Made by a program: the position numbers and the translations under genes. A DNA stretch of 64,000 nucleotides from Gallionella sp. (GTDB lineage Bacteria; Pseudomonadota; Gammaproteobacteria; Burkholderiales; Gallionellaceae): the NCBI GenBank assembly GCA_028710525.1, contig JAQTTY010000001.1:371143-435142 (forward strand). Reading direction: 5' to 3'. The notes under the pieces were generated by a model. That model ran no database searches. It saw nothing but the letters and a program-made list of their open reading frames with translations, and had not been told where the DNA came from. Shown in pieces: positions 22,151 to 26,853 of the stretch (the first letter of the stretch is position 1; each line of letters begins with the position of its first letter).

Positions 22151-23476
22151 ATGACTATGAACGCTAAGCCCATCAACGTAGGACTCCTCGGTATCGGCAC
22201 AGTCGGCGGCGGCACATTCACCGTATTGCAGCGTAACGCTGAAGAGATCGCGCGCCGCGCCGGCCGTCCCATACGCATCACCGTGGTGGCGGATCGCAAC
22301 GTCGAGTTGGCGAAAAAGGTCACGGGTGGTACTTGTCGTGTGACCGACGATGCGTTTGCCGTTGTCGCAGATCCTGAAGTGGATATCGTCGTCGAACTGA
22401 TCGGCGGCTACGGCGTGGCCAAAGAGCTGGTGCTCAAAGCGATTGCCAATGGCAAGCATGTGGTCACCGCAAACAAAGCGTTGTTGGCCACACATGGCAA
22501 CGAGATCTTCAAAGCCGCGCAGGACAAGGGCGTGATGGTCGCGTTCGAAGCGGCGGTGGCGGGCGGTATCCCCATCATCAAGGCGGTACGTGAAGGCCTG
22601 ACCGCCAACCGTATCGAGTGGATCGCCGGCATCATCAATGGCACCACCAACTTCATCTTGTCCGAGATGCGCGACAAGGGCTTGAGTTTCGACACCGTAC
22701 TCAAAGAAGCGCAGCGTCTGGGTTACGCAGAAGCTGATCCAACCTTCGATATCGAAGGCGTGGACGCGGCACACAAAATCACCTTGCTCGCCTCGCTGGC
22801 GTTCGGCATTCCTGTGCAGTTCGACAAAGCGCATATCGAAGGCATCTCCAAGCTCGACGCCATCGACATCAAATATGCCGAGCAATTGGGCTACCGCATC
22901 AAACTGTTGGGCATCGCCAAGCGCACAGCCGAAGGTGTGGAGCTGCGCGTGCATCCGACTTTGATTCCGAGCAAACGTCTGATCGCCAATGTGGAAGGTG
23001 CGATGAATGCGGTGCTGGTGCAGGGCGACGCAGTGGGGGCGACCTTGTATTACGGCAAGGGCGCTGGTGCTGAGCCGACTGCCAGCGCGGTGATCGCCGA
23101 CTTGGTGGACGTGACGCGCATGCACACTGCCGACCCGCTCAATCGCGTGCCGCATCTGGCCTTCCAACCAAACGCCATGGCCGACCTGAAGATGCTGCCT
23201 ATCAGTGAGGTGCAGACCAGCTACTACCTGCGTCTGCGCGTGCAAGACAAACCCGGTGTGCTGGCCGACATCACGCGTATCCTGGCGGATGAACAAATCT
23301 CTATCGATGCCGTCATCCAGAAAGAACCGGGCGAAGGTGAAGACCAAGCCGATCTGATTATGCTCACCCACCTGACCCGTGAGAAACGCATCGATGCCGC
23401 GATTGCGAAAATTGAAGCATTGGGCGTGGTGGCGGGTAAGGTCACCAAGCTGCGGATGGAAGAGCTTGGGAAATAA
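22151..23476 (+). CDS. hom: Homoserine dehydrogenase
   Basis: NVGLLGIGTVGGGTF, NKALLATHGNEI, GGIPIIKAVREGLTANRIEWIAGIINGTTNFILSEM, C-terminal ACT domain. Confidence 0.96.
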   Translation: MTMNAKPINVGLLGIGTVGGGTFTVLQRNAEEIARRAGRPIRITVVADRNVELAKKVTGGTCRVTDDAFAVVADPEVDIVVELIGGYGVAKELVLKAIANGKHVVTANKALLATHGNEIFKAAQDKGVMVAFEAAVAGGIPIIKAVREGLTANRIEWIAGIINGTTNFILSEMRDKGLSFDTVLKEAQRLGYAEADPTFDIEGVDAAHKITLLASLAFGIPVQFDKAHIEGISKLDAIDIKYAEQLGYRIKLLGIAKRTAEGVELRVHPTLIPSKRLIANVEGAMNAVLVQGDAVGATLYYGKGAGAEPTASAVIADLVDVTRMHTADPLNRVPHLAFQPNAMADLKMLPISEVQTSYYLRLRVQDKPGVLADITRILADEQISIDAVIQKEPGEGEDQADLIMLTHLTREKRIDAAIAKIEALGVVAGKVTKLRMEELGK

Positions 23477-23477
23477 A

Positions 23478-23591
23478 TTGATAATCTGCGAAGTGGTTGA
23501 ATACGGAACAAATAGTCAGCGTACTGCTAGAAACAGGCGTAATTTTAAGTGGCGCATTGAAGATGTTTACTACACAGGTATCCGTCAATGA
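23478..23591 (+). CDS. Possible small 37-aa ORF overlapping the ATPase start
   Basis: TTG-initiated frame LIICEVVEYGTNSQRTARNRRNFKWRIEDVYYTGIRQ*, whose stop overlaps the ATPase ATG (ATGA). Confidence 0.25.
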   Translation: MIICEVVEYGTNSQRTARNRRNFKWRIEDVYYTGIRQ

Positions 23592-24688
23592 TTAAGAAAG
23601 TTTCCGATTGGAATCAGCTCTCCAGATTTGTGTTGCGAGGCTATAAATCTATAGCCGAGTGTGATATTGAACTTGGAAAACTGAACGTTCTGATTGGAGC
23701 TAACGGTGCAGGAAAATCCAATTTCATCGGTTTCTTTCGCTTGATTAATCGCATTCTGGATAATCAGCTTCAAGCATCTGTTGGAGATGCGGGCGGGCCG
23801 GATGCGCTACTGCATTTTGGCCGAAAAAAAACCGAAGAACTGCATGCGGAGATGTATTTCGGGCATAACGGCTACCAGTTTACGCTCAAGCCAACGCAAG
23901 ACAATCGCATGATGTTTGCGCATGAGGCTCTCTGGTGGGAGCAGCATGGGGATTGGCGTCCACATTCCGGTCATTTCGAGACCTACGTGGAAGAACAAAA
24001 AAAGAAAACCAAAATTTACGAATATGTAGTCCCCGCCATGCGTCGCTGGCGACTCTATCATTTCCATGACACAGGCCGTAGTGCTCTGGTCAAGCAGGTT
24101 CATGGCATCAATGACAATGAATATCTGCGCGATGATGCGCGTAACCTCGCGGCCTTCCTGTATCGCCTGAAGAATCATCACGAGGCTCATTACAAGCGCA
24201 TTGTCAAAGCCATTCAGTTAGTGGCGCCGTTCTTCGGCGACTTCCATCTGCGCCCCACTCTGGATAATTTGGAAAAAATCCAGCTTGAATGGACCGAGGC
24301 GGGGCAAGACATTCCGTTTACTGCTAGCGCTTTATCAGATGGGACTTTGCGTTTTATTTGCCTCGCTACGGTGTTGTTGCAACCTAATGAGTTTATGCCC
24401 GCCACCATTCTTATCGATGAGCCGGAATTGGGACTGCATCCCTTTGCAATTGCTGCTCTGGGTGGATTGATGAAATCTGCAGCTGGTAATCATCAGCTTA
24501 TCGTTTCTACCCAGTCTGTCGAGCTGGTCAATGAATTTGATGCTGACAATCTCGTTGTGGTCGACAAGCAAGGTGGTGCTTCAACCTTTAAACGCCTGAA
24601 TGGTGAGGAGTTGGCTGAATGGCTGGGCGACTACAGTCTAGGTGAATTGTGGAAGAAGAATCTGCTGGGCGGGAGGCCGACGCGATGA
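23588..24688 (+). CDS. AAA family ATPase (SMC/RecF-like, AAA_21-type), candidate defence ATPase
   Basis: LRGYKSIAECDIELGKLNVLIGANGAGKSNFIGFF (Walker A), ALSDGTLRFICLATVLLQP signature, TILIDEPELGLHPFAI (Walker B/D-loop), LIVSTQSVELVNEF. Confidence 0.9.
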   Translation: MIKKVSDWNQLSRFVLRGYKSIAECDIELGKLNVLIGANGAGKSNFIGFFRLINRILDNQLQASVGDAGGPDALLHFGRKKTEELHAEMYFGHNGYQFTLKPTQDNRMMFAHEALWWEQHGDWRPHSGHFETYVEEQKKKTKIYEYVVPAMRRWRLYHFHDTGRSALVKQVHGINDNEYLRDDARNLAAFLYRLKNHHEAHYKRIVKAIQLVAPFFGDFHLRPTLDNLEKIQLEWTEAGQDIPFTASALSDGTLRFICLATVLLQPNEFMPATILIDEPELGLHPFAIAALGGLMKSAAGNHQLIVSTQSVELVNEFDADNLVVVDKQGGASTFKRLNGEELAEWLGDYSLGELWKKNLLGGRPTR

Positions 24689-25356
24689 CCCGCGTTTACC
24701 TGCTGGTCGAAGGACAGACCGAGGAAGCATTTGTGCGCGAGTTGCTTGAGCCACATTACGCGCGTTTGGGTTTGTATCTCACCCCCATCATCGTTAGCAC
24801 TAGTCCGGGTTACAAAGGCGGCGTGGTGAGCTATGCCAAGATCAAACCTCAACTCCTGCGCTTGTGCAGACAGGATGCTGCCGCTCATGTCACCACGCTA
24901 TTCGACTTGTATGCCCTGCCGCAAGACTTTCCCGGCAAAGCCGATGCAGCATATCCATCAGCTGGCACGGGGCATATGAAAGCCTCATTTCTGGAGGCAC
25001 AACTGACGCAAGACATCGCTCAATCTAATTTCATCCCTAACTTGGTGGTGCATGAGTTTGAGGCATTATTATTCGTGGATACAAGAAAGTTTTCCGAGTG
25101 GGTTGATAACTACAAAATCGTGATTTCTTTGGGCGACCAGGCGCAGGATTATGAAACCCCAGAAGACATTAACGATAGCCCGAAAACGGCTCCCTCCAAG
25201 CGCATTCTGGCTGTCATGCCGAACTATCAAAAAACGTTCCATGGCCCTTTGATTGCTTGCGAAATCGGGCTGGATGCTATGCGAGGTGCTTGCCCACACT
25301 TTAATGAATGGTTGAAAAAACTGGATGCACTGTTGCCGTCTATGACAACGGCTTGA
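24685..25356 (+). CDS. DUF4276 family protein (Toprim-like)
   Basis: RVYLLVEGQTEEAFVRELLEPHY, VVSYAKIKPQLLRL, VTTLFDLYALPQDFPG, NLVVHEFEALLFVD; ATGA overlap with the upstream ATPase. Confidence 0.87.
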   Translation: MTRVYLLVEGQTEEAFVRELLEPHYARLGLYLTPIIVSTSPGYKGGVVSYAKIKPQLLRLCRQDAAAHVTTLFDLYALPQDFPGKADAAYPSAGTGHMKASFLEAQLTQDIAQSNFIPNLVVHEFEALLFVDTRKFSEWVDNYKIVISLGDQAQDYETPEDINDSPKTAPSKRILAVMPNYQKTFHGPLIACEIGLDAMRGACPHFNEWLKKLDALLPSMTTA

Positions 25357-25401
25357 GTTGGTGGCTTCCAGCTCGAAATACTTTTCGGATAAGGAATTTT
25401 A

Positions 25402-26853
25402 ATGAAATACATCTCCACACGCGGCAACGCGCCGGCCAAGACATTTACTGAAATCCTGTTGGGCGGTCTCGCACCCGATGGCGGGCTGTATCTGCCGGAA
25501 GAATATCCGCAGGTGACGCGTGCCGAGTTGGATGCTTGGCGCAAGCTGTCGTATGCCGATCTAGCGTTCGCGGTGTTGTCCAAGTTTGCGACCGATATTC
25601 CAGCCGCTGACCTGCAGGCCATTATCAGCAAGACTTACACCGCCGAGGTGTACAACAAGGGACGCGCGGATTCGGATTTCGAACAGATCACGCCGTTGCG
25701 CACACTTGAACCGGGCGTGCATATTCTAGAGTTGTCCAATGGACCGACGCTGGCCTTCAAGGACATGGCGATGCAGTTGCTGGGCAATCTGTTCGAGTAT
25801 GCGTTGGCTAAACAGCACGACGAGTTGAACATCCTCGGTGCGACTTCCGGTGACACCGGTTCGGCGGCGGAATATGCGATGCGCGGCAAGCGTGGCATCC
25901 GTGTATTTATGTTGTCACCTAACGGCAAGATGTCGGCCTTCCAGCGCGCGCAGATGTATTCGCTACAAGACCCCAACATCCACAACATCGCCGTCAACGG
26001 CATGTTCGATGACGCGCAAGACTTGGTGAAAGCCGTGTCCAACGACCACGCTTACAAGGCCGCGCACAAGATAGGCACGGTCAACTCCATCAACTGGGGC
26101 CGCGTGTCGGCGCAGATCGTGTATTACTTCAAAGGCTATTTCGCTGCCACACAATCGAATGACGAGCAGGTCGCGTTCTCGGTACCGTCAGGTAACTTTG
26201 GCAATATCTGCGCAGGCCACATCGCACGCATGATGGGTTTGCCTATCGGCCAACTGATCTTGGCGACTAACGAGAACGACGTGTTGGACGAGTTCTTTAC
26301 CACTGGTCAATACAAGCCGCGCGGTACGGCGCATACCTATGAGACCAGCAGCCCATCCATGGACATCAGCAAAGCGTCCAACTTTGAGCGCTTCGTGTTC
26401 GATCTGGTTGGACGCGATGGCGCCAAGGTGCGTGAGTTTTGGAGCAAGGTGGAAGCGGGCAGCGGGACGGCCGACAGCGTGGCTTTCGATATCCACCATA
26501 CCCCGTATTGGGATGCGTTGCAGCAGTTCCATTTCGCATCGGGCAAGAGCTCACATTACGACAGACTCAAGACCATACGTGGCATCTATGAAGAATATGG
26601 CGTGATGGTCGATCCTCACACTGCCGATGGCATCAAGGTCGGTATGGAGCAGCGTCGTCCTAATCTGCCGCTGATCTGTTTGGAGACTGCGTTGCCCGCA
26701 AAATTCGAAGAGACCATCGTCGAGGCGCTGTCATGCAAACCTGAACGCCCCGCAGCGTTGGAAGGCATAGAAGACTTACCACAACGCTGTGTGGTGATGG
26801 ATGCGGATGTGGTTAAACTTAAGGCCTACGTCAGCGCAAATATCACCCATTAG
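25402..26853 (+). CDS. thrC: Threonine synthase
   Basis: MKYISTRGNAPAKTFTEILLGGLAPDGGLYLPEEYP, LSNGPTLAFKDMAMQLLGNLFEY, LGATSGDTGSAAEYAMRGK. Confidence 0.97.
   Translation: MKYISTRGNAPAKTFTEILLGGLAPDGGLYLPEEYPQVTRAELDAWRKLSYADLAFAVLSKFATDIPAADLQAIISKTYTAEVYNKGRADSDFEQITPLRTLEPGVHILELSNGPTLAFKDMAMQLLGNLFEYALAKQHDELNILGATSGDTGSAAEYAMRGKRGIRVFMLSPNGKMSAFQRAQMYSLQDPNIHNIAVNGMFDDAQDLVKAVSNDHAYKAAHKIGTVNSINWGRVSAQIVYYFKGYFAATQSNDEQVAFSVPSGNFGNICAGHIARMMGLPIGQLILATNENDVLDEFFTTGQYKPRGTAHTYETSSPSMDISKASNFERFVFDLVGRDGAKVREFWSKVEAGSGTADSVAFDIHHTPYWDALQQFHFASGKSSHYDRLKTIRGIYEEYGVMVDPHTADGIKVGMEQRRPNLPLICLETALPAKFEETIVEALSCKPERPAALEGIEDLPQRCVVMDADVVKLKAYVSANITH

Follow-up and report, generated by a model that had tools for sequence, protein, structure and literature searches.

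An ATPase–DUF4276 gene pair of the candidate HEC-01 type, with a predicted OLD-like Toprim subunit, in a variable hom–thrC slot of Gallionella

Within a 64,000-nucleotide stretch of Gallionella DNA (the window), two overlapping genes lie between hom and thrC. We think it likely that they encode an anti-phage module of the HEC-01 type, OLD/PARIS-like and made of two subunits, that was acquired horizontally into an integrase-free slot at this junction. The argument draws on features computed here: the two-gene module itself, the predicted folds of both proteins, a set of catalytic-like residues, horizontal transfer, the variable slot and purifying selection.

A coupled gene pair between hom and thrC

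The initial annotation described an ATPase ORF (Walker A GANGAGKSN, signature LSDGT, Walker B TILIDEPELGLHP) that overlaps a DUF4276 ORF by ATGA and is flanked by homoserine dehydrogenase and threonine synthase genes, all of which we found in the sequence as described (Table 1). It placed the start at 23,478, which is just past the hom stop codon, whereas the first gene actually begins at 23,588. Both ORFs are intact, and Pfam assigns them to AAA_21 (E = 4e-30) and DUF4276 (E = 2.3e-57). In PADLOC-DB 2.0.0 the ATPase matches HEC-01A (PDLC04175, E = 2.7e-155, residues 9–364 of 366) and its partner matches HEC-01B (PDLC04188, E = 1.2e-84, near full length). Judging by these profile matches, the pair that had been proposed as a candidate anti-phage system is already catalogued as one, the candidate defence system HEC-01, for which an antiviral role is putative.

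Table 1. Features of the gene pair and its surroundings in the window, and coding cargo at the hom–thrC junction of Gallionella genomes
Feature	Position or genome	Strand	Basis
hom (homoserine dehydrogenase), left border of variable slot	22151..23476	+	
hom-to-ATPase spacer, 111 bp	23477..23587	+	
ATPase gene (HEC-01A-like; AAA_21/OLD-type ABC ATPase; OLD/SMC-type), 366 aa	23588..24688	+	ORF, Pfam, PADLOC, AF2, fold search
ATGA stop/start overlap of the ATPase and DUF4276 genes, 4 bases (translational coupling)	24685..24688	+	sequence
DUF4276 gene (HEC-01B-like; predicted Toprim nuclease), 223 aa, ATG start	24685..25356	+	ORF, Pfam, PADLOC, AF2, invariance
DUF4276-to-thrC spacer, one weak terminator-like hairpin at 25353-25376	25357..25401	+	
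thrC (threonine synthase), right border of variable slot	25402..26853	+	
Cargo: HEC-01 pair	window		
Cargo: EcoRV-like endonuclease (2.2e-106) + D12 methyltransferase	G024; same pair by identity in G020		
Cargo: DndB-like + GIY-YIG	G026		
Cargo: PIN protein	G001		
Cargo: DUF433 + DUF5615	G016		
Cargo: small cupin-like ORF	five genomes; in G019 with a DUF4260 gene		

A scan with one genome per species returned 245 relatives, the best 80 of which were kept for locus analysis. The ATPase gene is directly upstream of the DUF4276 gene in 79 of those 80 (the remaining one sits at a contig end), and the −4 overlap is exact in all 34 close relatives for which both ends were readable, which argues that the arrangement is not due to chance.

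The pair probably uses the transcription of the threonine operon, as had been suggested, and no promoter-like site above chance level precedes it. We dropped the idea of a dedicated promoter, as promoter-like sites numbered 2, vs 2.6 expected, and neither lay on the plus strand. Terminator-like hairpins in the region (3 found vs 1.8 expected, including the one in Table 1) were not significant. The 111-bp spacer contains a 37-codon open stretch whose TGA end lies across the ATPase start. It had no convincing match in relatives' loci, plasmids or Pfam and does not resemble the C-termini of helicases found upstream of the pair elsewhere; we rejected it as a remnant gene.

The DUF4276 subunit is predicted to adopt an OLD-type Toprim fold

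AlphaFold2 gave a confident model of the DUF4276 protein from an 82-homologue alignment (pLDDT 94.9, pTM 0.90). Compared with PDB folds, its top three matches were crystal entries for the C-terminal Toprim region of Xanthomonas OLD (6njv, 6njx and 6njw; E = 3.6e-05 to 1.8e-04, probability 1.00), at modest TM-scores of 0.38–0.41 by query length, and no other fold reached E ≤ 0.001. The protein is therefore predicted to have the class 2 OLD Toprim fold, and the Toprim core that had been anticipated for it is present in the model. In Pfam, at E ≤ 1, the window protein matched DUF4276 and, weakly, OLD-like_TOPRIM, and not DUF4435; 21 of the 82 homologues also matched OLD-like_TOPRIM weakly (best 0.0037). 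Since a profile search against PDB sequences gave unconvincing matches only, the link to OLD rests on the predicted fold and the invariant residues.

Class 2 OLD proteins hold two metals with E400, E404, D455, D457, T506 and E508, and K562 is nearby (PMC6755086). Six DUF4276 residues, E9, E13, D74, E124, E126 and K183, are invariant in 82/82 homologues, and together with (Y76) they are our candidate catalytic residues. The spacings of E9/E13 (i,i+4) and E124/E126 (i,i+2) and the order of the residues are as in class 2 OLD, and so is the kind of position that they take: in the model, E9 follows strand 1, D74 is at a strand end and E124/E126 are at a helix start. With the correspondence judged from residue order, spacing and secondary structure, and not from superposed coordinates, the invariant DUF4276 residues match 5 of the 6 class 2 metal-ligand positions plus the catalytic lysine, with a glutamate (E124) where the OLD TxE motif has threonine. 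The initial annotation looked to VEGQTEE and FDLYALP for a conserved E/DxD; the latter segment supplies D74-L75-Y76, a D-x-Y rather than a DxD. At position 76, 78 homologues have Tyr, 3 have Phe, 1 has Gln and none has Asp.

Because the second DxD aspartate is absent, activity is not assured. Since 81 of the 82 homologues have Tyr or Phe in its place, the protein could be a relic that has decayed or lacks catalysis, its dead Toprim serving only to bind nucleic acid or as a scaffold. We consider this very unlikely. The six other active-site-like positions are invariant throughout, neither window ORF is broken, and purifying selection acts on the ATPase (see below). Moreover, D457 of Bp OLD touches metal A only via waters, and single mutants still cleave (PMC6755086), so that by analogy the missing aspartate need not abolish catalysis by DUF4276.

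The ATPase subunit

The AlphaFold2 model of the window ATPase (pLDDT 94.3) found its best fold matches among the heads of SMC, Rad50 and RecN, the PtuA proteins of Septu and retron systems, and an OLD nuclease. Across all 60 aligned sequences there is no variation in the Walker A core, the D-G signature or Walker B, and a T-Q-S segment that follows Walker B has an invariant Gln. The predicted folds of the two proteins agree with the earlier proposal of an ATPase–Toprim pair like those of OLD and PARIS.

Distribution and acquisition of the pair

Relatives of the pair occur in Pseudomonadota, Acidobacteriota, Bacteroidota, Bacillota, Chloroflexota, Myxococcota, an archaeon and others. Its distribution is sporadic: DUF4276 matches were found in 6 of 37 genus genomes and 32 of 274 genomes of the class, and ATPase matches in 6 of 41 genus genomes. 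Twelve plasmid records carry DUF4276, and none of the 50,697 phage records searched does. In the ATPase tree, the window copy and that of a betaproteobacterial metagenome-assembled genome (DeMMO1_2; L074) cluster with Pseudomonas and Acidovorax copies (SH-aLRT 96), those of G005, G011 and G019, from the same genus as the window, with Burkholderia and Trinickia (97), and those of G010 and G062, again from this genus, with a Myxococcota row (98). This placement of same-genus copies in different groups implies several separate acquisitions, and the pair is one that has been acquired horizontally. The picture of a module dropped into a metabolic operon is in keeping with this: the pair is mobile and not universal at hom–thrC, being sporadic in the genus, absent from most readable junctions and acquired several times.

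DeMMO1_2 has the pair at the same hom–thrC junction. Its identities to the window (hom 93, thrC 89, aminotransferase 85, ATPase 91 and DUF4276 79 per cent) are as expected if pair and flanks were inherited together. Between these two copies the ATPase dN/dS is 0.03, with dS near-saturated, which indicates that the ATPase has been kept by selection; DUF4276 evolves faster (pN 0.129 vs 0.055 for the ATPase).

The hom–thrC junction is a variable cargo slot

The junction was readable in 34 genus genomes (33 plus the window). Coding cargo is present in 11 of them (Table 1), and in the other 23 the gap is at most 234 bp and is often filled with palindromic repeats. The neighbouring aminotransferase–hom junction served as a control: of 18 loci examined, 16 have a gap there of ≤96 bp and two have one of 415 bp. 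The hom–thrC gap is thus a variable cargo slot in the genus, a feature that the initial annotation missed. No integrase was found in the flanks of the window insert, and we rejected the idea of transposon ends around it after finding no terminal repeats beyond chance-like matches.

The repeats in the short gaps are palindromic and of REP/MITE type (G008, G009, G010, G012, G013, G015, G021, G025, G029, G033, G063 and G064). They differ from one another, for example GTCATTCCCGCG...CGGGAATGAC and GGATGGGT...ACCCATC, and none of the repeat motifs tried was present in the 64-kb window. In about 13 genus genomes (L032–L039, L056, L057 and others), thrC is 66–68% identical to that of the window and hom ~85–91%. 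This suggests, from sequence identities, that thrC was replaced by a foreign copy beside the same junction; with thrC divergent while hom is conserved, hom–thrC may be a recombination breakpoint. The cargo of G026 (L063:3388–5261) has the hom–thrC gap to itself and consists of a DndB-like protein (Pfam DndB 1.3e-15; PADLOC DpdB 1.7e-12) coupled to a GIY-YIG nuclease of 112 aa; the two are possibly a separate two-gene system.

Contexts of relatives at other loci

Among the best 80 of the 245 relatives, 13 loci have a DrmD/HmaA-like helicase, AbiU-like or type III methyltransferase gene within 8 kb (helicase/methylase examples are L081, L089 and L102), and the majority, 67, have no Hma-like gene within that distance, which counts against the reading that we favour. 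An Aeromonas plasmid has the order WYL, SNF2, ATPase, DUF4276, methyltransferase. On Acinetobacter and Piscirickettsia plasmids the pair is solitary, one such copy being directly beside vapBC.

Some of these features would also suit a toxin–antitoxin or addiction-like pair, in which a toxic DUF4276 nuclease is restrained by the ATPase and the two are retained since their loss is costly, not for any effect on phage. The strict gene order and overlap, the solitary plasmid copies with one adjoining vapBC, and the PIN and DUF433/DUF5615 genes, of domain types frequent in toxin–antitoxin pairs, that fill the same slot in related genomes could all be read in this way. We regard it as unlikely, given that the related PARIS is not a toxin–antitoxin system, deletion of either gene being non-toxic and both being required for defence (PMC9122126), and that siting within defence loci fits a defence function better.

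Other copies of the pair are found at core-gene junctions (gene names here, namely prmB, hpnC, mnmE, mnmG, metH, efp and rsgA, were read from translated sequences and are not profile hits). In four loci mnmE is just upstream of the pair, and in one mnmG comes after it. In Burkholderia and Trinickia the pair lies between two metH pieces (metH1–metH2), and in Thiomicrorhabdus it has metH on one side and an RsgA-like gene on the other (L147, L152 and L103). In three genus genomes (L067, L068 and L069) it has the same place between prmB-like and hpnC-like genes, tightly packed to both neighbours with overlaps or gaps of ~0–30 bases. About 8 kb from the pair in one of these (G011, L068:13779–14722) is a CRISPR-like repeat array, with FNPRPPRRAGAT repeating in translation. 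A broken HEC-01 copy in G033 (L071:9333–10449), where efp-like and rsgA-like genes flank an ATPase piece of 132 aa and a DUF4276 ORF, indicates that the pair can decay in place.

The range of core junctions (hom–thrC, prmB–hpnC, mnmE–mnmG, metH1–metH2), along with the strong purifying selection, might point instead to a housekeeping or stress function that core operons have recruited, either in the repair of nucleic acids or in the processing of RNA, with the nuclease acting on the host's damaged DNA or RNA. That such a function would be so sporadic (6/37 genus genomes and 32/274 in the class, by DUF4276 matches), acquired several times, carried on plasmids and found in defence-locus contexts seems quite improbable to us.

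Proposed mechanism and implications

For the anti-phage module that we favour, PARIS provides a guide: when its ATPase has sensed a phage protein, it lets go a dimer of the Toprim tRNase AriB, which cuts tRNA (PMC12409363, PMC12839542). By analogy, we infer that the ATPase of the HEC-01 pair would act as sensor and lock, binding ATP, dimerising and keeping its Toprim partner, DUF4276, inactive. A cue from infection, either a phage protein or abnormal nucleic acid, would alter the ATPase, and the altered ATPase would free or activate the nuclease. DUF4276, using two-metal catalysis, might then cut nucleic acid (tRNA, other RNA or DNA), and this cleavage would stop the phage from growing, probably to the detriment of the cell. 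The pair would have lodged in a hom–thrC slot that takes other defence cargo as well.

What is likely to be new here is the assignment of DUF4276 to Toprim, with its D-x-Y motif, and the variable hom–thrC slot. A catalogued but uncharacterised candidate gains a concrete proposed mechanism with named candidate catalytic residues. In an E. coli survey, defence systems were almost always on mobile elements (PMC10121019); here a small defence slot is within a core amino-acid operon, and the insert in the window has no visible mobility gene, which raises the question of how defence cassettes enter and move between operon junctions. We offer a broader idea only tentatively, as possible but somewhat doubtful: DUF4276 would be a distinct class of Toprim nuclease that has a D-x-Y active site and a target of its own. 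HEC-01 pairs would often be solitary passengers in core biosynthetic operons (hom–thrC, metH1–metH2, prmB–hpnC, mnmE–mnmG), in integrase-free slots where recombination between the conserved flanking genes would swap in different defence genes.

Comparison with known systems

In the passage of PMC12988326 that cites the preprint of Payne et al. (2024), HEC stands for Hma-embedded candidate, found via "guilt-by-embedding", and several HECs including HEC-06 are stated to have antiviral activity. The literature that we searched contained no report of HEC-01 tested for defence, no experiment on the family and no mention of DUF4276; HEC-01 appeared as a defence system in one genome survey only. Both window proteins match their HEC-01 counterparts over the full length, their genes share the ATGA overlap, and some relatives lie inside helicase and methylase loci, as the name implies. 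In contrast, the window copy is alone between hom and thrC and not in an Hma or any other defence locus, although embedding is how the family was discovered and is not required of every member.

The window ATPase shares its fold with PtuA of Septu and retron systems, but the partner nuclease there is the HNH protein PtuB rather than a Toprim protein. It is also homologous to the MAD3 ATPase of MADS (PADLOC mad3 9.8e-29; NCBIfam antiphage_MADS3 3.3e-27), yet falls far under the NCBIfam cut-off (95.7 vs 420 bits); a literature search on MADS returned unrelated papers only. With class 2 OLD (Xcc OLD and Bp OLD), the DUF4276 protein shares the predicted Toprim plus helical C-terminal fold and, in part, the conserved two-metal ligand pattern. 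It differs in having Tyr for the second DxD aspartate, and class 2 OLD is a single chain, whereas ATPase and Toprim are two proteins in the window and are separate in the relatives checked.

PARIS, which pairs the OLD-ABC ATPase AriA with the DUF4435 Toprim protein AriB, has the same two-gene layout and a Toprim effector. The window ATPase matches the AriA profile (6.1e-29), but HEC-01A far better (2.7e-155), and its effector is a DUF4276 protein with no DUF4435 match. OLD-ABC/TOPRIM dyads in the loci of a BREX survey have been described as backup suicidal effectors (PMC12839542), a description that, by analogy, fits the helicase–methylase contexts of HEC-01 relatives.
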